Positions 28,978-36,992 of a DNA stretch of 64,000 nt are shown here, piece after piece. Below the pieces are notes generated by a model. That model was given only the letters and a program-made list of their open reading frames with translations. It searched no databases and had not been told where the DNA came from. The DNA is from Coriobacteriia bacterium. Lineage in GTDB: Bacteria > Actinomycetota > Coriobacteriia > Anaerosomatales > SLCP01. The first letter of the stretch is position 1. Each line of letters begins with the position of its first letter. The position numbers were made by a program, and so were the translations under genes. The stretch lies in NCBI GenBank assembly GCA_030603745.1, contig JAUVXE010000001.1:1-64000 (forward strand), given 5' to 3'.

Positions 28978-30299
28978 GGCCGGCCGGTCTGGTACAGCAG
29001 TTCGCGGTCCGCAGCCTTCTCGTCATCGGGATCGGCGCGGTGGCGCTCGGGCTCCTGCTCTCGTGGATCGTCCGCACCTCGGCGATCGAGGAGACGACAA
29101 GGGCCACCAAGGTGCTGGCCAACGCGCTGATCATCCACAACGTGACCGAGGATGTCTTTGCGGGACTGGTCGCGACCCGGGACGCCTCGGGGTTCGAGGC
29201 CCTCCTCCGCGCGGACCTCGAGATCGCCGACATCGTCGCGGTCAAACTGTGGGACCGTGACGGCGTGATGGTCTATTCGAGCGATCCCGAGGACCCCGTG
29301 GGCATGTCATTCGCGGAGAAGCGCGAGGTCGCGCTCGCGCTCTCCGGCCAGACCGCCGCCAAGGTCGTGACGTCGGGGACCGAGGCGGAGAACGTGGCCC
29401 AGTTCCGCAAGGCGGGCGCGGTCATCGAGGTGTACGCACCGCTCGTCTTCTCCCCGGACGCCGAACCGGTCGGCGTCTTCGAGGTCTACCAGCCTTACGG
29501 TCCGGCGCTCACGCAGATCCGGCGCGCCACGTTCACCATCTGGGCGCTCGTCCTTCTCGGTGGCGCGGCCGCCTACGTCATGCAGGTGCGCATGGTCCGT
29601 CACGCCGCCGATCGCCTCGTCGCCTCCGAGGCCGAGGTGGACGCGGTGAACACCCGGCTCGAGTCGTCGCTTCGCGAGCTCGAGGAGCACTCCCTCGGCA
29701 CGTTGCAGGCGCTCACGACGGCGGTGGACGCGAAGGACAGCTACACCGCGAGCCACTCGCTCAACGTGACCGACTTCGCGGTCGCGATCGGCCGCCGCCT
29801 GCGCCTGCCCGAGCACGACGTGGTCACGCTCGAGCGGGCGAGCCTGCTCCACGACATCGGCAAGATCGGGGTGCCCGAGGCGGTGCTGCTCAAACCCTCA
29901 CGTCTCGACAGCGCCGAGTTCGACCGCGTCCGTGAGCACAGCGAGATGAGCGCCCGGATCATCGAGTCCATCCCGTTCCTGAGCGACCTCGTCCCGATCG
30001 TCCGTCACCATCACGAGCGCTGGGACGGCAACGGCTACCCCGACGGCCTGAAGGGCGATGAGACACCCCGCCTCGCGCGCATCCTCGCCGTCGCCGACGC
30101 GTTCGACGCGATGATCTCCGACCGTCCCTACCGGGCCGGGATGCGGGTGGTGGCCGCGCGGCAGGAGCTCATGCGCTGCCGGGGTATCCAGTTCGATCCC
30201 GAGACGGTCGACGCGCTGTTCGCGGCTCTCGACGGCGGAGACCTCGGTCTCATCGGCGTGCGAGGGCCCGAGCGCCACGTCAAGGCCGCCGCTTCCTAG
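28974..30299 (+). CDS. Membrane sensor HD-GYP phosphodiesterase
   Basis: A 441-residue protein: transmembrane helix at ~12-33, an extracytoplasmic Cache-like sensor at ~34-186 (WDRDGVMVYSSDPEDPVG, VYAPLVFSPDAEPVGVFEVYQP), second helix ~187-206, a short coiled coil to ~245, then an HD-GYP domain with H293/D294 (LLHDIGKIGVPEAVLLKP) and HHHERWDGNGYPDGLKGDE (345-363). All HD-GYP signature residues are intact, so c-di-GMP hydrolysis is likely. GTG 28974 overlaps the feoB stop, with GAGGAGG ahead, making it part of the DtxR-controlled operon. Confidence 0.9.
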   Translation: MRPAGLVQQFAVRSLLVIGIGAVALGLLLSWIVRTSAIEETTRATKVLANALIIHNVTEDVFAGLVATRDASGFEALLRADLEIADIVAVKLWDRDGVMVYSSDPEDPVGMSFAEKREVALALSGQTAAKVVTSGTEAENVAQFRKAGAVIEVYAPLVFSPDAEPVGVFEVYQPYGPALTQIRRATFTIWALVLLGGAAAYVMQVRMVRHAADRLVASEAEVDAVNTRLESSLRELEEHSLGTLQALTTAVDAKDSYTASHSLNVTDFAVAIGRRLRLPEHDVVTLERASLLHDIGKIGVPEAVLLKPSRLDSAEFDRVREHSEMSARIIESIPFLSDLVPIVRHHHERWDGNGYPDGLKGDETPRLARILAVADAFDAMISDRPYRAGMRVVAARQELMRCRGIQFDPETVDALFAALDGGDLGLIGVRGPERHVKAAAS

Positions 30300-30357
30300 C
30301 GGCGCCCCGGCGCGCTCCGTGCACGGCTCAAAGGACTGCGTCCGGCAGCGCGCGGTC

Positions 30358-30386
30358 TTGCAGACCGAACAGGTGTTCGATATACT
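30358..30386 (+). promoter_or_regulatory. Promoter with LexA (SOS) box
   Basis: TTGCAG (30358-30363) and TATACT (30381-30386) are 17 bases apart. Between them lies CGAAC-AGGT-GTTCG (30366-30379), a perfect inverted repeat matching the Gram-positive/actinobacterial SOS box form CGAACN4GTTCG. LexA bound there would cover the spacer. It controls the DUF6504-dnaE2 pair. Confidence 0.82.
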
Positions 30387-30460
30387 CGGGGTCCGCCGTG
30401 AGGTCGGCCCCTCCGATCTCGCGGCGTCCTGGTCCGGCGCGCGTTCCGGAGGCTCTCCCC

Positions 30461-30880
30461 GTGGGTCGCAACACCGCCATCAAGCGCTATGAACCGCTTC
30501 CCGAGGGCCGCCCGCTCGACCTGTTCGACTCCGCCGAGGGCCGCCGTCCTGTCGTGCTCGACCTGCTTTCCACGCCGTGGCTGACGCGCGCTTCGGCGCT
30601 CGTGAGCCCTGAAGACGCAGGCGTGGGCCGTCGGGTGTGCGAGCGCGTCGAGGTCGCCTGGGACGCCGAGGAGCGCTCTCCGCGGGGGTTCGTGCGCGAC
30701 GGCCGCTTCCAGCGGGTGGCGGGCGTGGTCCAGACCTGGGCGGTCGACCGGCGCTGGTGGGAGCCGACCGCTCACGTGAGTCGACGGTGCTGGCGTGTCC
30801 TCACCGAACAGGGGGGCACCTACGACCTTGCGTTCGACCGGGTGAGCGGGACGTGGCTGCTCCTCGGCATCCTGGACTGA
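30461..30880 (+). CDS. DUF6504 family protein (mutasome-associated)
   Basis: A 139-residue protein. GTG 30461 is set by GGAGG eight bases upstream. The C-terminal half (RRWWEPTAHVSRRCWRVL, GGTYDLAFDRVSGTWLLLGILD) matches the DUF6504 pattern found at the C-terminus of ImuB-like polymerases or as separate genes beside dnaE2. The N-terminal half (RYEPLPEGRPLDLF...) is unassigned. Directly before dnaE2 and behind a LexA box, it is probably an accessory subunit of a translesion polymerase. I see no catalytic motif. Confidence 0.75.
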   Translation: MGRNTAIKRYEPLPEGRPLDLFDSAEGRRPVVLDLLSTPWLTRASALVSPEDAGVGRRVCERVEVAWDAEERSPRGFVRDGRFQRVAGVVQTWAVDRRWWEPTAHVSRRCWRVLTEQGGTYDLAFDRVSGTWLLLGILD

Positions 30881-30888
30881 GGGCCGCC

Positions 30889-33800
30889 ATGACCGGGGGG
30901 CGGACAGACTCCTTCGTGCACCTGCACGTGCACTCGCGCTTCAGCTTCGGTGACGGGGCGGCTGACCTTGGCGGGCTGATCGCACGCGCCGGCGAGCTCG
31001 GCATGGGCGCGCTCGCCCTCACCGACCACCAGGGCCTCTACGGAGCGATTCGCTTCTACCGCGCGGCGCGCGAGGCGGGCATCCGGCCGATCCTCGGCAC
31101 CGAGGTCGTCGTCGAGACGGCCGGCATCGAGGGTATGGAGGGCGATCTGCCGCCGCGCGAGCGCCTCGGGCGCCCGGCCAGCGTGGGGTTCGGGCGCGCG
31201 TCCGGCTCAGGGTTCCACCTCACGCTCCTCGTCGCCGACATCAGCGGGTACCGCAATCTGTGCCGTCTGCTCTCACGCGCCCATGTGCGCTCCGCGAGCG
31301 AACCGAGCATCGTGACCCGTGCCGACCTCGCGGAACTCTCGGGCGGACTCATCGGCCTGAGCGGGTGCCCTAACGGCGAGGTGGGGGCGGCGGTCTCCGC
31401 GGGACGCATGCACCGCGCGCGGACGGCGCTTACGCGCCTCGCCGCGTGCTTCGCGCCCGGCGACTTCTACGTCGAGCTCATGCACCTGCTCACGCCCGCC
31501 TCGCCGCACTACATCGCTTCGCTCACCTCGCTCGCCGAGACCTGCGGCCTGCCCGTTGTGGCGACCAACAACGTCCACTACCTGCGGGCGGTCGATGCGC
31601 GCCTGCACGACGTCCTCTCGGCCGCCTCGGCGCGCATGTCTCTGCCCGGCCCCTACGAGCGACCCAACGCCGAGCTCTCGCTGAAGTCCGCCGCCGAGAT
31701 GCGCCGCCTTTTCGCCGCACACCCTGGAGCGTGCGACGCCACGCTCGAGATCGCCGAGCGCTGTGACCTCGACCTCGGCCTGGGCGAGTTCCACTTCCCG
31801 GCGGCCGACGTCCCGGCGGGGGAGACCGCACGCTCGCTGCTCGGCGGCCTTGCGCGCGCCGGCCTCGAGGAGCGCTACCGCACGCCCGCCGCCCGCCGGG
31901 CCGCGCACGAGCGCCTCGATCACGAGCTCGCCGTCATCGGCGATCTTGGCTTCCCTGAGTACTTCCTCGTGGTGCGCGAGATCGTCGAGTTCGCACGCGA
32001 GCGGGGGATCCGGTGCTCGGGGCGGGGGAGCGCGGGGGATTCGATCGTGAGCCACGTCCTCGGCATCACCGACGCCGACCCCATCGCGCACGACCTGCTC
32101 TTCGAGCGCTTTCTGAACCCCGCGCGCCGCCAGATGCCCGACATCGACGTCGACTTCGACTCCGCGCGTCGCGACGAGGTGATCGACTTCATCTACCGGC
32201 GGTTCGGCAGCGAGCACGTGGCGATGGTCGCGACCGTCAACACGATGACCGCACGCAGCGCCGTGCGCACCGTCGCGCGCGCGTTCGGGCACCCCGCCGC
32301 CGAGATCAACGCCTTCTCGCGCCACCTGCCCTGGGTCGGCGCGCACCGTCTGCGCGAGGCGCTCGCCACCTATCCCGAGTGCGCGAACCACCCGCTGCGC
32401 GACCCGCGCCACGAGCGCATCGTGGAGATCGCCGAGCAACTCGATTCATGCCCCATGCACCTCGGCACGCACCTCGGCGGGTTCATCATCACGCGGGAGC
32501 CCATCGACACCTGGACGCCGCTCCAGTGGGCTGCCAAGGGCGTGGTCGTCTCGCAGTACGACAAGGACGACGTCGAGGCGCTCGGCCTGGTGAAGATGGA
32601 CATCCTCGGCCTGCGCATGCACTCGGCGATCACCGAGACCGTCGAGCTCGCCCGCGCGCGGGTGGGCGAGGCTGCCGTGCCCGAGCCGTTCGACCTCCCG
32701 CACGACGACCCGCGCGTCTACGAGGCCATCGCGCGCGCCGACACGGTGGGCGTCTTCCAGCTCGAGTCGAGCGGCCAGCGCAACCTCAACACGCGCCTGC
32801 GCGCGACGCGGTTCGACGACATCATCGCCGCGATCTCGCTCTTCCGCCCCGGCCCGCTCGAGGCCGAGATGATCACGCCATTCATCCGCCGCCGGCACGG
32901 GATCGAGCCCGTCACCGTCCCGCACCCCGGGATGGCCACCGTGCTCGCCGACTCCTACGGGGTCATCGTCTACCAGGAGCAGGTGTTGCTGGTCGCGCGC
33001 GCGGTCGCCGGATTCGATCTCGCCGAGGCCGACTCCCTCCGCCGCGCGATGACCCGGGGCCGCAGCCGCGCCGAGATGGCCGAGATCCGCGCGCACTTCC
33101 TCGAGCGCGCGTTCGAGCGCGGTGTCTCGCCCGAGGTCGCCGAGGAGGTCTTCCGCCAGCTCGAGGGGTTCGCCGCGTATGGTTTCAACAAGGCGCACGC
33201 GGCGTGTTTCGCGGTGGTCTCCTATGCGAGCGCGTGGCTCAAGGTCAACTTCCCGGCCGAGTTCGCCGCCGCCATCCTCAACAACGAGCCGATGGGCTTC
33301 TACACGCCACGCCTCGTCGCCAACGACGCGCGCCGCCACGACATCGAGATCCGCTCACCGCACGTGAACGAGTCGAGCGCGCGCTACACGGTCGAGAACG
33401 ACGGTCGCGCGATCCGCGCCGGCCTGCGCGACGTCCACGAGATGAGCGCGCGCCTGCTCGCCGCGATCGAGCGCGAGCGCGCGGTGCGGCCCTTCCGCGA
33501 CCTCGCCGACTTCCTGCGCCGCACCCGGGCCGACACCGCCGCCGCGAGCAACCTCGTGCGCCTCGGCGCGCTCGACGGGCTCGGCGTGAGCGAAGCGGGC
33601 CGCTCACCCACCCGCGACGAGATGCTCGCGATCCTGCCCGAGCTCAAGGCCACGCTCGCCCGCGAGGGCGAGGTCGCCGACGACGTCTTGGTGCTCGCGC
33701 CCGGTCCCGTGCGCCCGCGTGAGGACCCCGCGCACGTGAGCGGATGGCTGCCCGCGCGCCGTCTCTCGGCCGAGCTCGAACTCCTCGGCCTCTCTCTCAC

Positions 33801-34251
33801 CTGTCACCCGCTCGACCTCGCCGAGGACGACCTGCGTACACGGGGCGTGACCTTCGCGCGTGACCTTCGCGACCTGCCCGACCGTGCCCGCGTGCGCGTG
33901 TGCGGGGTGCGCGAGCGCGCGCAGACGCCCCGTACCCGTTCCGGCCGCCGCACCTGCTTCCTCACGCTCGAGGACGCGACCGGACTCCTCGACGTGGTCG
34001 TCTTCGAGGACGCGCTCGCGCGGGCGGGGGAGACGATCGTCAAGCACCGCTGCTACCTCATCGATGGCGTGCTGCAGAACAACCACGAGCGCGGGCTCGC
34101 GATCGTCGCCGAGGAGGTCAGGCCCTACGTCGTGCGGACGTCAGCGGGCACCCCGGTGCGGTTGCGGCGCGGCGTGCCGAGCGGGCCGATGGGGCCGTCG
34201 CTCGGCGGAGCGGGTGCGCCGGAGGAGGAGTCGTGGGAGGCGGCCGGCTGA
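30889..34251 (+). CDS. dnaE2: Error-prone DNA polymerase III alpha, DnaE2/ImuC type
   Basis: A 1120-residue C-family polymerase. Residues 9-18 begin the PHP domain (FVHLHVHSRFSFGDG), with LTDHQGLYGA and ATNNVHYL following. The palm has GRGSAGDSIVSHVLGITDADP (in parts, from 378) and the catalytic aspartates in PDIDVDFD (417-424); KMDILGLRMHS carries the third. FQLESSGQ, YQEQVLLVARAVAGFDLAEAD and an OB-fold near the C-terminus (RTCFLTLEDATGLLDVVVFED) complete it. The PDIDVDFD...RRDEVIDFIY spacing and the SOS-controlled DUF6504 neighbour favour the damage-inducible form over the replicative DnaE1, but that is inference. Confidence 0.85.
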   Translation: MTGGRTDSFVHLHVHSRFSFGDGAADLGGLIARAGELGMGALALTDHQGLYGAIRFYRAAREAGIRPILGTEVVVETAGIEGMEGDLPPRERLGRPASVGFGRASGSGFHLTLLVADISGYRNLCRLLSRAHVRSASEPSIVTRADLAELSGGLIGLSGCPNGEVGAAVSAGRMHRARTALTRLAACFAPGDFYVELMHLLTPASPHYIASLTSLAETCGLPVVATNNVHYLRAVDARLHDVLSAASARMSLPGPYERPNAELSLKSAAEMRRLFAAHPGACDATLEIAERCDLDLGLGEFHFPAADVPAGETARSLLGGLARAGLEERYRTPAARRAAHERLDHELAVIGDLGFPEYFLVVREIVEFARERGIRCSGRGSAGDSIVSHVLGITDADPIAHDLLFERFLNPARRQMPDIDVDFDSARRDEVIDFIYRRFGSEHVAMVATVNTMTARSAVRTVARAFGHPAAEINAFSRHLPWVGAHRLREALATYPECANHPLRDPRHERIVEIAEQLDSCPMHLGTHLGGFIITREPIDTWTPLQWAAKGVVVSQYDKDDVEALGLVKMDILGLRMHSAITETVELARARVGEAAVPEPFDLPHDDPRVYEAIARADTVGVFQLESSGQRNLNTRLRATRFDDIIAAISLFRPGPLEAEMITPFIRRRHGIEPVTVPHPGMATVLADSYGVIVYQEQVLLVARAVAGFDLAEADSLRRAMTRGRSRAEMAEIRAHFLERAFERGVSPEVAEEVFRQLEGFAAYGFNKAHAACFAVVSYASAWLKVNFPAEFAAAILNNEPMGFYTPRLVANDARRHDIEIRSPHVNESSARYTVENDGRAIRAGLRDVHEMSARLLAAIERERAVRPFRDLADFLRRTRADTAAASNLVRLGALDGLGVSEAGRSPTRDEMLAILPELKATLAREGEVADDVLVLAPGPVRPREDPAHVSGWLPARRLSAELELLGLSLTCHPLDLAEDDLRTRGVTFARDLRDLPDRARVRVCGVRERAQTPRTRSGRRTCFLTLEDATGLLDVVVFEDALARAGETIVKHRCYLIDGVLQNNHERGLAIVAEEVRPYVVRTSAGTPVRLRRGVPSGPMGPSLGGAGAPEEESWEAAG

Positions 34252-34268
34252 GCACGCCCCGGTTGCGG

Positions 34269-34703
34269 CTACTCGGCGGTCTCTCCCTCGAGCACGCGGA
34301 TGTCGCGCGCGCGGATCTCCGGGCCGGCCATGCGTACGGATGCCCCGTCGAGCAGGATGCCGGTGACCTCCACGTAGCGGCCGCGCAGGTCGTCGAGGTC
34401 GGCGTCGAGGGAGTCCGGGTTCTCGATGACCGCGACGACCTGCGACTCGGCGGCGTCGGTCGAGGCGACGCCGAGCACCGCCCAAAACCCGCCCTCGAGG
34501 TCCACGCGGTCGAGCACGCCCACCGCGCGGACGCGGCCGCCGGGGGCGTCGTAGATCCCGGGAGCGTCGACCACCGGCGGCGTGCCGGGGATCACCGGGG
34601 GCGGCTCGGAGGCGGTGTCGTCGGCGCACGCGGCGACAAGGGCCAGGCCGAACGCGAGAAGTGCCGCGATGGCGAGCGCGCGCAGTGTCCGTGTGGCTCT
34701 CAC
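34269..34703 (-). CDS. Small lipoprotein, OB-fold-like
   Basis: A 144-residue secreted lipoprotein. The signal region is RALAIAALLAFGLALVAAC with the lipobox cysteine at C26. After a Pro-rich linker (SEPPPVIPGTPPVVD) come beta-rich segments (GRVRAVGVLDRVDLEGGFWAVLG, SQVVAVIEN, LRGRYVEVTGILLDGASVRMAGPEI) suggestive of a small OB-type barrel. GTG 34703 overlaps the dinB stop by four bases (GTGA), so it is translated from the dinB transcript. Its link to DNA damage tolerance is unclear. Confidence 0.72.
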   Translation of the reverse strand: MRATRTLRALAIAALLAFGLALVAACADDTASEPPPVIPGTPPVVDAPGIYDAPGGRVRAVGVLDRVDLEGGFWAVLGVASTDAAESQVVAVIENPDSLDADLDDLRGRYVEVTGILLDGASVRMAGPEIRARDIRVLEGETAE

Positions 34704-35944
34704 GTCGATCTCCCGTCCCTGGTGGTGTCCGTGTCCGGTCGCCTCGCGTCCGGGCGCCTCTGCCGGCCGCCCACGTCGAGCGCACCCGGCCCGAACCGTT
34801 CCCGGACCGCGTCGACACTCGCCGCAAGGCGTTCTTTCGCCGGGTCCTCCCCGGCACCTTCCCCGCCGAGGAGATCGAGCTGCACCGCCCGTTCCTCGAA
34901 CCCGCTCACCCCGACGCCGAGGAGGCGGACCCCCACGCCCGGCGACCACACCGTCCGAAGCAGGTCCATCGCCACGGAAAGGACGGTCTGGCGGTCGTCG
35001 GTCGGGACCGGCACCGTCCGGCGTACCGTGCGGGTCGTGAAGTCACCATACCGCACTTTGACCGTCACGGTCCGACCGCTGAGCCCCTTACGCCGCAGAC
35101 GCTCGGTCACCCGGGCGCTGAGCGCCGAGAGCGCCGCGCGCACCTCGGCCGCGTCGTGGACGTCCTCGGCGAACGTCCGCTCGTTGGAGACCGACTTGGC
35201 GGGCTCGTTCTCGACGACCGGCCGGGGGTCGACGCCGCGGGCACGTTCGAGGAGCGAGGGGGCCCACGAGCCGAGGACCTCCTCGGCGGTGAGACGGTCG
35301 AGGGCGGCGAGCTGGCCGAGGGTCGCGATCCCGAAGCGCTCGAGGCGGGCCGCGGTCACCGAGCCAACACCCGGCATGAGGCCGACCGGCAGCGGGGCGA
35401 GGAACGCGGCCTCGGTACCCGGGCGCACCACCGTGAGGCCGTGCGGCTTGTCGCGGTCCGAGGCGATCTTGGCGACGGTCTTCGAGGTCGCGACACCGAT
35501 GGAACAGGTCACGCCGAGGGCGGCGACCCGCTCCTGTATCCGCCGGGCGACGGCGACGGGGTCCTCGGCGAAGTGGCGGCCGGGGGTCACGTCGAGGTAC
35601 GCCTCGTCGATGGAGGTCGGCTGGACGGCCGGCGTCTCCTGGCCGAGGATCGCGCGGACCTGGAGCGATACCTCCCGATACCTCTCGCCGCGGGGGCGGG
35701 CCCACACGGCGTCCGGACAGAGCGCCGCGGCGCGCGCCGAGGGCATCGCCGAGCGTACGCCGAAGCGACGGGCCTCGTACGACGCCGCCGAGACCACGCC
35801 ACGCTTCGCCGGGTCGCCCCCCACGACCACCGGCCTGCCACGCCACTCGGGATGGTCGAGCTGCTCCACCGAGGCGAAGAAGGCGTCCATGTCCACGTGG
35901 AGGACCGCGCGGCCGCTCCAGGGGGTGTCGGGTGTCGCGTCCAT
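34700..35944 (-). CDS. dinB: DNA polymerase IV
   Basis: A 414-residue Y-family translesion polymerase. Catalytic carboxylates are in HVDMDAFFASVEQ (near residue 20) and SIDEAYLDVTPG (near 105). SYEARRFGVRSAMPSARA, CSIGVATSKTVAKIASDRDKPHGL and the helix-hairpin-helix MPGVGSVTAARLERFGI follow, then the little-finger domain (ERTFAEDVHDAAEVRAAL...TVTVKVRYGDFTTRT in parts). A ~40-residue polar tail lacks an obvious beta-clamp motif except QLDLL near the end, which could serve. TACACT six bases before ATG suggests a leaderless transcript. It is opposite to dnaE2. Confidence 0.92.
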   Translation of the reverse strand: MDATPDTPWSGRAVLHVDMDAFFASVEQLDHPEWRGRPVVVGGDPAKRGVVSAASYEARRFGVRSAMPSARAAALCPDAVWARPRGERYREVSLQVRAILGQETPAVQPTSIDEAYLDVTPGRHFAEDPVAVARRIQERVAALGVTCSIGVATSKTVAKIASDRDKPHGLTVVRPGTEAAFLAPLPVGLMPGVGSVTAARLERFGIATLGQLAALDRLTAEEVLGSWAPSLLERARGVDPRPVVENEPAKSVSNERTFAEDVHDAAEVRAALSALSARVTERLRRKGLSGRTVTVKVRYGDFTTRTVRRTVPVPTDDRQTVLSVAMDLLRTVWSPGVGVRLLGVGVSGFEERAVQLDLLGGEGAGEDPAKERLAASVDAVRERFGPGALDVGGRQRRPDARRPDTDTTRDGRST

Positions 35945-36084
35945 GGGACGAGTGTACCCCCGCCGGGGGCGTCCCGGGCGTGCCTTCACCGGCCCGGATC
36001 CCAGCGGACGCGCACCCGCACGCCCAGCATCCTCACGCCCGCACCCGCGTGTTCGCACTCGCACGCCCAGGCGGTAGCGGCATC

Positions 36085-36098
36085 GGGTGCGGTAGAAT
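36085..36098 (+). promoter_or_regulatory. -10 region of nfo, 14-mer shared with def promoter
   Basis: GGGTGCGGTAGAAT ends in a good -10 (TAGAAT, 36093-36098), 31 bases before the nfo start. The identical 14-mer recurs at 48321-48334 before def. No clear -35 is seen at either copy. Confidence 0.45.
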
Positions 36099-36128
36099 CC
36101 CCGCGACACCACGAGCGAGAGGGGTCCG

Positions 36129-36992
36129 ATGTTCATCGGTGCGCACGTCTCGGTCGCGTCCGGGCTCGCCGAGGCGGCGTCCTACGCTGCCTCGGTCGGA
36201 TGCGAGTGCATGCAGATCTTCGCCAAGAGCCCGCGTCGCTGGCACGCCCGCCCGCTCGATCCCGCAGCCGGCGCCGGACTCGCGGCAGCCTGCGAGAAGC
36301 ACGGGATCAGGGCCGTCTTCACGCACGCCGCCTACCTCATCAACCTCGGCACCCTCGATGACGCCCTCCTTGAGCGCTCGGTCGACGCGCTCGCCGACGA
36401 GCTCGTCCGCGCCCGCATGCTCGGAGCCCGGGGGGTCGCGGTCCACCTCGGCACCGACCCCGAACGTCGGCCGGAGGCGGCCGCCGAGCGCATCGCCGCC
36501 GCCGTCGACGAGGTGTTCGCACGCGCCGGGATGCGGGAGCCGGTCGACGGCCCGCGCCTGCTGCTCGAGAACAGCGCCGGGGCCGGCACCACCTACGGAC
36601 GCACCGTGGCCGAGATCGGCGCGGTCTTCGAGCGCTCCGGGTCGCCCGGGCTCCTCGGCGTGTGTCTCGACACCTGCCACGCGCACGCCTCGGGGATCGA
36701 CCTGTCGAGTGAGACCGCGTGGAGGCGGGTGATCGCGGAGATCGAGGCGACGTGCGGCCCGGATGCCCTGCGACTGATCCACGCCAACGACTGCCTGTCC
36801 GAGCTCGGGGGGAACCGCGACCGGCACGCGTGGATCGGGGAGGGGACCCTCGGCGAGGAGGGTTTCGAGGCGATGTTCGCAGCCCTCGGCGGGTCTGAGG
36901 ACCTCTCGGTGGTCGTGGAGATGCCGGGCGAGGTCCCGGTCAAGGACGCCGAGAACGTCGGCCGCCTCAAGAGGCTGCGCGACGGGTTGTGA
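36129..36992 (+). CDS. nfo: Endonuclease IV (AP endonuclease)
   Basis: A 287-residue zinc TIM-barrel enzyme cutting 5' of abasic sites. Family landmarks: MFIGAHVSVASGLAEA, MQIFAKSPRRW, FTHAAYLINLGT, VHLGTDP, LLENSAGAGTTYG, GVCLDTCHAHASGID, LIHANDCLSELGGNRDRHAWIGEG (in parts) and VVEMPGEV, which together carry the His/Glu/Asp metal ligands. GAGAGGGG lies before ATG 36129. It extends the cluster of repair genes formed by dnaE2 and dinB. Confidence 0.94.
   Translation: MFIGAHVSVASGLAEAASYAASVGCECMQIFAKSPRRWHARPLDPAAGAGLAAACEKHGIRAVFTHAAYLINLGTLDDALLERSVDALADELVRARMLGARGVAVHLGTDPERRPEAAAERIAAAVDEVFARAGMREPVDGPRLLLENSAGAGTTYGRTVAEIGAVFERSGSPGLLGVCLDTCHAHASGIDLSSETAWRRVIAEIEATCGPDALRLIHANDCLSELGGNRDRHAWIGEGTLGEEGFEAMFAALGGSEDLSVVVEMPGEVPVKDAENVGRLKRLRDGL

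Follow-up and report, generated by a model that had tools for sequence, protein, structure and literature searches.

In the mycobacterial mutasome, DnaE2 works with ImuA' and ImuB (PMC10421592). ImuB is the hub of this system: it has an essential clamp motif, and a mutant without its C-terminal region phenocopies the loss of imuB. In Deinococcus, an imuY-imuB-C-dnaE2 cassette encodes the C-terminal domain (ImuB-C) separately, and SOS mutagenesis has been shown for D. deserti and D. ficus (PMC8072749); the same paper describes the precise role of ImuB-C as not clear. Modules of ImuB-C and DnaE2 without ImuB have also been published as predictions from genome comparisons (PMC3765255 in 2013, PMC6511836 in 2019, and PMC12926913 in 2026). 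Here we describe such a pair from a Coriobacteriia bacterium of the order Anaerosomatales. The two genes, imuB-C and dnaE2, lie on a 64-kb stretch of DNA (positions 1 to 64,000 of contig JAUVXE010000001.1; hereafter, the window), which is contig 2 of a 2.14 Mb genome that is 98.5% complete. We think that they form an SOS-induced ImuB-C/DnaE2 translesion unit, with a probability of about 0.72.

The DnaE2-[ImuB-C] module (Arthrobacter alpinus type; Timinskas et al. 2026, PMC12926913) has DnaE2 tied only to a stand-alone ImuB-C. It is reported from Actinobacteria only, in genomes with no ImuA or ImuB. Our locus has the same arrangement, with a stand-alone ImuB-C (DUF6504) next to a second DnaE. 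Beyond what is described for the A. alpinus type, it is found across an order, it has a LexA box, its ImuB-C carries an N-terminal arm, and the genome encodes a DinB whose gene has no exact box. The DnaE2-[ImuB-C]-PolY-RecA module (Tessaracoccus lapidicaptus type; PMC12926913) resembles our case in that one genome encodes DnaE2, a stand-alone ImuB-C, and a Y-family polymerase (PolY) that seems to be active and has a RecA-NT motif. However, the PolY gene of our locus lies outside the operon, converges on it, and has no exact LexA box, and ImuB-C is armed. The Deinococcus cassette shares the SOS-controlled dnaE2 and the separate ImuB-C, but its Y-family protein (ImuY) is inactive, lexA is in the operon, and ImuB-C of D. 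deserti has 80 residues (PMC8072749). The mycobacterial mutasome also combines an ImuB-C domain with DnaE2 under SOS control, with a clamp motif (a putative one in our case) on the hub protein, but it also employs ImuA' and ImuB's inactive Y-family body (PMC10421592), which are absent or were not found here.

An earlier note on this stretch had proposed a two-part mutasome with DUF6504 as the adaptor. Since ImuB-less pairs of ImuB-C and DnaE2 appear in PMC3765255, PMC6511836, and PMC12926913, this idea is not new, but it gains from the co-inheritance of the two genes, from the LexA box, and from armed relatives in genomes without a Y-family gene. Our analysis adds the order-wide co-inheritance, the conservation of the LexA box, a box for each gene where the pair is split, and the motif in the arm. 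In the published text that was available, we did not find the arm of ImuB-C or the armed relatives that lack Y-family genes.

The operon is on the plus strand. A -35-like hexamer, TTGCAG (30358..30363; 3/6 match to TTGACA), is followed by the LexA operator CGAACAGGTGTTCG (30366..30379), which matches CGAACN4GTTCG exactly, and by a -10-like hexamer, TATACT (30381..30386; 5/6 match). The operator lies within the 17-nt spacer between the two hexamers, and the TTG of the -35-like hexamer is kept at 85–96% per base in an alignment across the Anaerosomatales. A promoter and terminator scan of 30200-36400 listed nothing; it missed the operon promoter because the -35 is below the scan's threshold. A Shine-Dalgarno-like GGAGG (30448..30452) lies 8 nt upstream of the GTG start codon (at 30461) of imuB-C (30461..30880, 139 amino acids). 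After a gap of 8 nt comes the ATG of dnaE2 (30889..34251), which encodes a DNA polymerase III alpha homolog of 1120 amino acids that we tentatively assign to the DnaE2 type. On the minus strand, and convergent to the operon, is dinB (34700..35944; Pol IV type), with its active-site residues present. The earlier note had described the box between the -35 and -10 elements, the stand-alone DUF6504 protein followed by a DnaE-type polymerase, and a catalytically intact DinB on the other strand, and all of this holds.

CGAACAGGTGTTCG is the only exact match to CGAACN4GTTCG in the window, where we found 9 sites with at most one mismatch (4.1 expected). Genome-wide, there are 12 exact sites, as compared to 2 for a reversed control pattern. 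Among the matches listed for this genome, exact sites are found upstream of recA, lexA, and uvrA (we named the genes by eye from their translations); the sites L009 and L010 are within coding sequence and L014 is at the end of one. Judging from its pattern and from the company of these sites, the operator at 30366-30379 is a real SOS box. A chance match can be rejected, both by the genome-wide count against the control and by conservation across the order.

The same search turned up other sites. An exact box precedes a 126-amino-acid open frame on contig 20 (L013, complement of 1108-1485), which is a candidate SOS gene. Between lexA and a divergent LysM-like open frame (L007, 1475-1514) there are one exact and one near-exact box. 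Finally, CGAACAACCGTTCG (L008, 1501-1514; C3:122615-122628) is located in front of a TrpR/YerC-like gene, and about 0.44 kb separate it from the downstream match to the replicative dnaE; it may connect the replicase to the SOS response or may have arisen by chance.

Pfam reports DUF6504 in 57 of the 69 genomes from the order and in none of 227 other genomes in our sample of the class. Inspection of homologs added two genomes from the order (G054 and G137). The named relatives of DUF6504 (47 loci) are almost all from Coriobacteriia, Anaerosomatales, or unplaced actinobacterial metagenome assemblies, plus strain EMTCatB1. Two loci labeled 'Slackia sp.' (L301) and 'Aeromicrobium sp.' (L311) look as if they belong to the same order and are probably from misnamed bins.

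We considered DnaE2 to be present at 60% identity or above; both this line and the DnaE2-negative genomes were set by reading the list of matches. Among the matches listed, 58 of the 69 genomes have both DUF6504 and DnaE2, 7 have neither, 1 has DUF6504 only, and 3 have DnaE2 only (Fisher's exact test, p = 8.5e-7, ignoring relatedness). The discordant cases are three genomes with contig ends at the locus (G072, G139, and G135) and one with a broken dnaE2 (G141). The seven genomes without the pair fall in families f2, f3, f4, f6, f14, and f15, and five of these families also have members with both genes, which makes it likely that the pair was lost jointly on several independent occasions. Across the order, imuB-C and dnaE2 are inherited and lost together. 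A search of phages with DnaE2 yielded only matches below 60% identity.

The LexA box is conserved as well. Two of the 59 genomes with DUF6504 have no sequence upstream of the gene, and 56 of the remaining 57 have an exact box that ends 33–102 nt before the start codon. The conserved sequence extends beyond the box and is close to TTGTATA-box-ATATACT. In the sole exception (G078), there is no box and the dnaE2 match carries a TGA. In three genomes (G005, G006, and G007), insertions have separated imuB-C from dnaE2 by 1.1–3.9 kb, and each of the two genes has its own exact LexA box.

Some of these loci appear to be decaying or rearranged. G078 and G141 (L138 and L149) are from one genus, and their dnaE2 matches have an in-frame TGA. 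In G007 (L029, 4240-8130), the genes between imuB-C and dnaE2 resemble toxin-antitoxin genes (by eye), and there are DUF6504-like fragments at 1981-2146 of this locus.

The earlier note had asked about an imuB elsewhere in the genome. We found just one DUF6504 gene, which is the stand-alone one, and just one Y-family gene, which encodes an intact DinB. This leaves no candidate for ImuB, and we rejected the possibility that it is encoded elsewhere in this genome. For ImuA, the RecA family (PF00154) has one match above the cut-off in the genome, which is recA; a diverged ImuA could score below the cut-off.

The protein from imuB-C matches PF20114 (DUF6504) at 36.6 bits, with a cut-off of 24.2 bits, across residues 59-138. 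We infer that DUF6504 is the published ImuB-C domain because, across 14 control genomes, PF20114 matched only in Caulobacter, which has ImuB (its cassette is cited in PMC6511836), and because short forms of DUF6504 adjoin DnaE2, and often PolY as well, among the matches listed. Our literature search found no paper that names DUF6504. AlphaFold, run on the single chain, predicts a confident barrel at about residues 57-137; we assign residues 56-139 (30626..30877, plus strand) to the beta-barrel, and the pLDDT is 75–96 by blocks from residue 61 onwards. In searches of the PDB, the best E value by sequence was only 0.11; by fold, there was no Foldseek match at E ≤ 0.001, and the best VIA Z score was 6.5, which is under the informative level.

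Residues 1-55, ahead of the barrel, form the arm. Its predicted structure has low confidence (pLDDT of 47 for residues 1-10, 51 for 11-20, and 66 for 21-30), with a weak helix at 25-36. In an alignment of 57 sequences, several positions in the arm are invariant or nearly so: I7, K8 (or R), D20 (or E), L21 (57/57), F22 (51/57, with L in the other 6), P39, and W40. Residues 11-15 and 23-27 are variable. The conserved segment includes RPLDLF (residues 17-22; 30509..30526, plus strand), and PLDLF matches the clamp consensus QL[SD]LF at 4 of 5 positions. Similar sequences, PLPLF or xLPLF, are putative clamp motifs in DnaE2 from proteobacteria (PMC3919608). These similarities suggest that the arm, via (Q)PLDLF, may contact the sliding clamp; that the arm serves as a clamp tether is a tentative proposal. 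In the published text that was available, we saw no mention of a clamp motif for a stand-alone ImuB-C.

Turning to the polymerase, Pfam identifies the domains PHP, DNA_pol3_alpha, finger, HHH_6, and OB, and none beyond the OB fold. The genome encodes another DnaE on contig 3, which has the clamp motif QVSMF, the intact PHP aspartate, and the C-terminal region, so we consider it to be the replicative one. The polymerase in the window lacks both the QVSMF motif and the C-terminal region of this DnaE: it has 47 residues beyond an anchor near the OB fold, as compared to 91 in the genome's own DnaE1. The C-terminal (CTD) domain is absent from every DnaE2 (PMC3919608). The earlier note had also raised the case of a sole, replicative DnaE in the window; the DnaE on contig 3, with its clamp motif and C-terminal region, rules this out.

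We collected DnaE2 proteins from 55 of the 69 genomes from the order (54 with the N-terminal PHP part). At the place of the clamp motif, all 14 of the order's DnaE2s that we aligned have GDDVLVL or similar, with no Q (by eye). In contrast, all 32 of the DnaE2s with a short ImuB-C as partner have a Q at position 1 of the motif (by eye).

Outside of the order, we searched 95 loci with a profile of the arm, and only three matched with E < 0.001: L247, L251, and L218 (from genomes G334, G416, and G298). We also searched 34 DUF6504-bearing genomes from outside the order for Y-family genes. There were none in G298, G334, G416, or G513, and at least one in each of the other 30. (Six weak matches, G513, G442, G309 on C20, G297, G428, and G326, are left out of our set of loci from the phylum.) Because the armed members represent just two families, the contrast in Y-family genes is suggestive. 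Armed pairs are also present in lineages that have no Y-family gene, among them probably Rubrobacter. On a plasmid of Rubrobacter tropicus (L318, 4615-9351), a divergent lexA is followed by a 147-amino-acid 'hypothetical protein' whose gene overlaps that of a 'DNA polymerase III subunit alpha.' The hypothetical protein has a weak match to the arm and a clear match to the barrel. We did not find a box of the CGAACN4GTTCG pattern at this locus. A tblastn search of plasmids with DUF6504 found no match, despite this diverged copy. Our literature searches found nothing on DnaE2 in Rubrobacter, and none of the papers listed in a search on Anaerosomatales, DnaE2, LexA, and the SOS response deals with Anaerosomatales.

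The DnaE2s whose partners are armed form one branch in our tree (SH-aLRT of 97). This bears on another explanation, that ImuB-C binds damaged DNA and is encoded in one operon with the polymerase but does not bind it. DNA binding by ImuB-C has been proposed, and ImuB-C is found next to other repair genes as well (PMC3765255). We consider this explanation to be highly improbable, given the shared branch and that imuB-C and dnaE2 are present, lost, and regulated together.

If the operon is a translesion unit, then LexA would repress both genes until DNA damage leads to the cleavage of LexA, and both proteins would then be made. The barrel of ImuB-C would bind DnaE2, probably at the PHP domain, as has been modeled for the ImuB-C/PHP interface of ImuB (PMC12926913), and would bring it to stalled forks for translesion, and probably mutagenic, synthesis. 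The arm may touch the sliding clamp, in which case ImuB-C by itself could perform the hub function that ImuB has in mycobacteria. RecA may join the complex, perhaps with DinB via its RecA-NT-like tail, although DinB is probably not required. The furthest version of this proposal is a 'minimal ImuB': with its arm on the clamp and its barrel on DnaE2, a 139-residue protein would replace both ImuA and the whole Y-family body, the clamp contact would have moved from the polymerase to its partner, and the Rubrobacter-like relatives would need no Y-family protein. We view this version as possible but doubtful. A system of two genes whose operon lacks a Y-family body, and whose relatives in some cases have no Y-family gene anywhere in the genome, would single out ImuB-C and DnaE2 as the smallest possible mutasome. 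Two purified proteins and a clamp would then be enough to test directly whether ImuB-C is an adaptor.

Several points weigh against these interpretations. They rest on sequences and predicted structures. The arm motif has no Q at position 1, and the residue that precedes PLDLF in the window's protein is R, not Q. As to the loss of the polymerase's own motif, the DnaE2 at L218, whose partner is armed, lacks the Q (by eye), but two of the three Rubrobacter-type DnaE2s with armed partners (R. tropicus and L251) keep QxxLPL, and it is degenerate in L247. This weakens the loss of the clamp motif as a general trait of DnaE2s with armed partners, and any transfer of clamp binding from the polymerase to its partner would not apply to all of them. 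The window's polymerase also scores higher with NCBIfam's DnaE1 model (920, cut-off 1002) than with its error-prone model (877, cut-off 939), both of which are sub-threshold. In our tree, the split that would position the armed-partner branch with respect to DnaE1 and to other DnaE2s has a support of 11, with a warning of long branches. Finally, the PHP site of the window's polymerase is intact at 10 of the 11 residues that we examined. The sole change is Asp to Asn at Asn228 (31570..31572, plus strand), which is equivalent to D226 of DnaE1 from Mycobacterium tuberculosis (aligned via the genome's own DnaE1), and the aspartate is kept in 25 of the order's 55 DnaE2s.

The scores, the tree, and the PHP site would suit a damage-inducible, DnaE1-like paralog that still proofreads and that supports replication restart instead of mutagenesis. 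However, the window's polymerase has neither a C-terminal region nor a canonical clamp motif, and like other DnaE2s it has a LexA box and an ImuB-C partner. Also, 30 of the 55 proteins, including the one in the window, have the asparagine, and D226N abolishes the exonuclease activity of M. tuberculosis DnaE1 (PMC5636811). Overall, we think that a proofreading paralog is improbable. Because 25 of the 55 keep the aspartate, some members of the order may proofread; DnaE2s with a non-degenerate PHP metal site are already published as exceptions. A fast tree of the order's DnaE2s implies at least 10 changes between Asp and Asn, which would mean that predicted proofreading was lost or gained repeatedly.

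The translesion unit might instead include DinB. In the complex of the Tessaracoccus type (PMC12926913), DnaE2 and ImuB-C would work with active DinB and RecA, and the contacts to the clamp and to RecA would come from DinB. We obtained DinB from 59 of the 69 genomes. All 59 aligned copies, including the one in the window, have the catalytic D, D, and E, a clamp-type motif (QLDLL in the window, 34868..34882, minus strand), and a RecA-NT-like tail (KERLAASVDAVRERFGPGALDVGG in the window, 34766..34837, minus strand). When the tail was compared with the N-terminal end of RecA from the order, just 2 of 2,000 column shuffles reached its similarity score. Among the listed loci that reach dinB, it is convergent and its near end is 3.8–8.1 kb from the start of imuB-C, and among the matches listed, a Y-family gene accompanies DnaE2 in 58 of the 61 genomes that carry it (none of the 69 genomes has more than one). 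On the other hand, none of the 59 dinB genes has an exact LexA box, and just four have a site with one mismatch (0.3% in shuffles); dinB may therefore be under SOS control in a few genomes. Furthermore, five of the seven genomes without the imuB-C/dnaE2 pair retain dinB, along with nfo beside it, and armed pairs are found in genomes without any Y-family gene. These findings go against the earlier note's suggestion of a DUF6504-DinB partnership, at least as an obligate one. DinB is likely to be dispensable; it is possible that it is a partner, but not an obligate one, and a complex that depends on its contacts seems rather unlikely.

Between dnaE2 and dinB, the window has a lipoprotein-like open frame (34272-34832, minus strand) with no Pfam match. 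Relatives of this frame are found at the equivalent place in many genomes.

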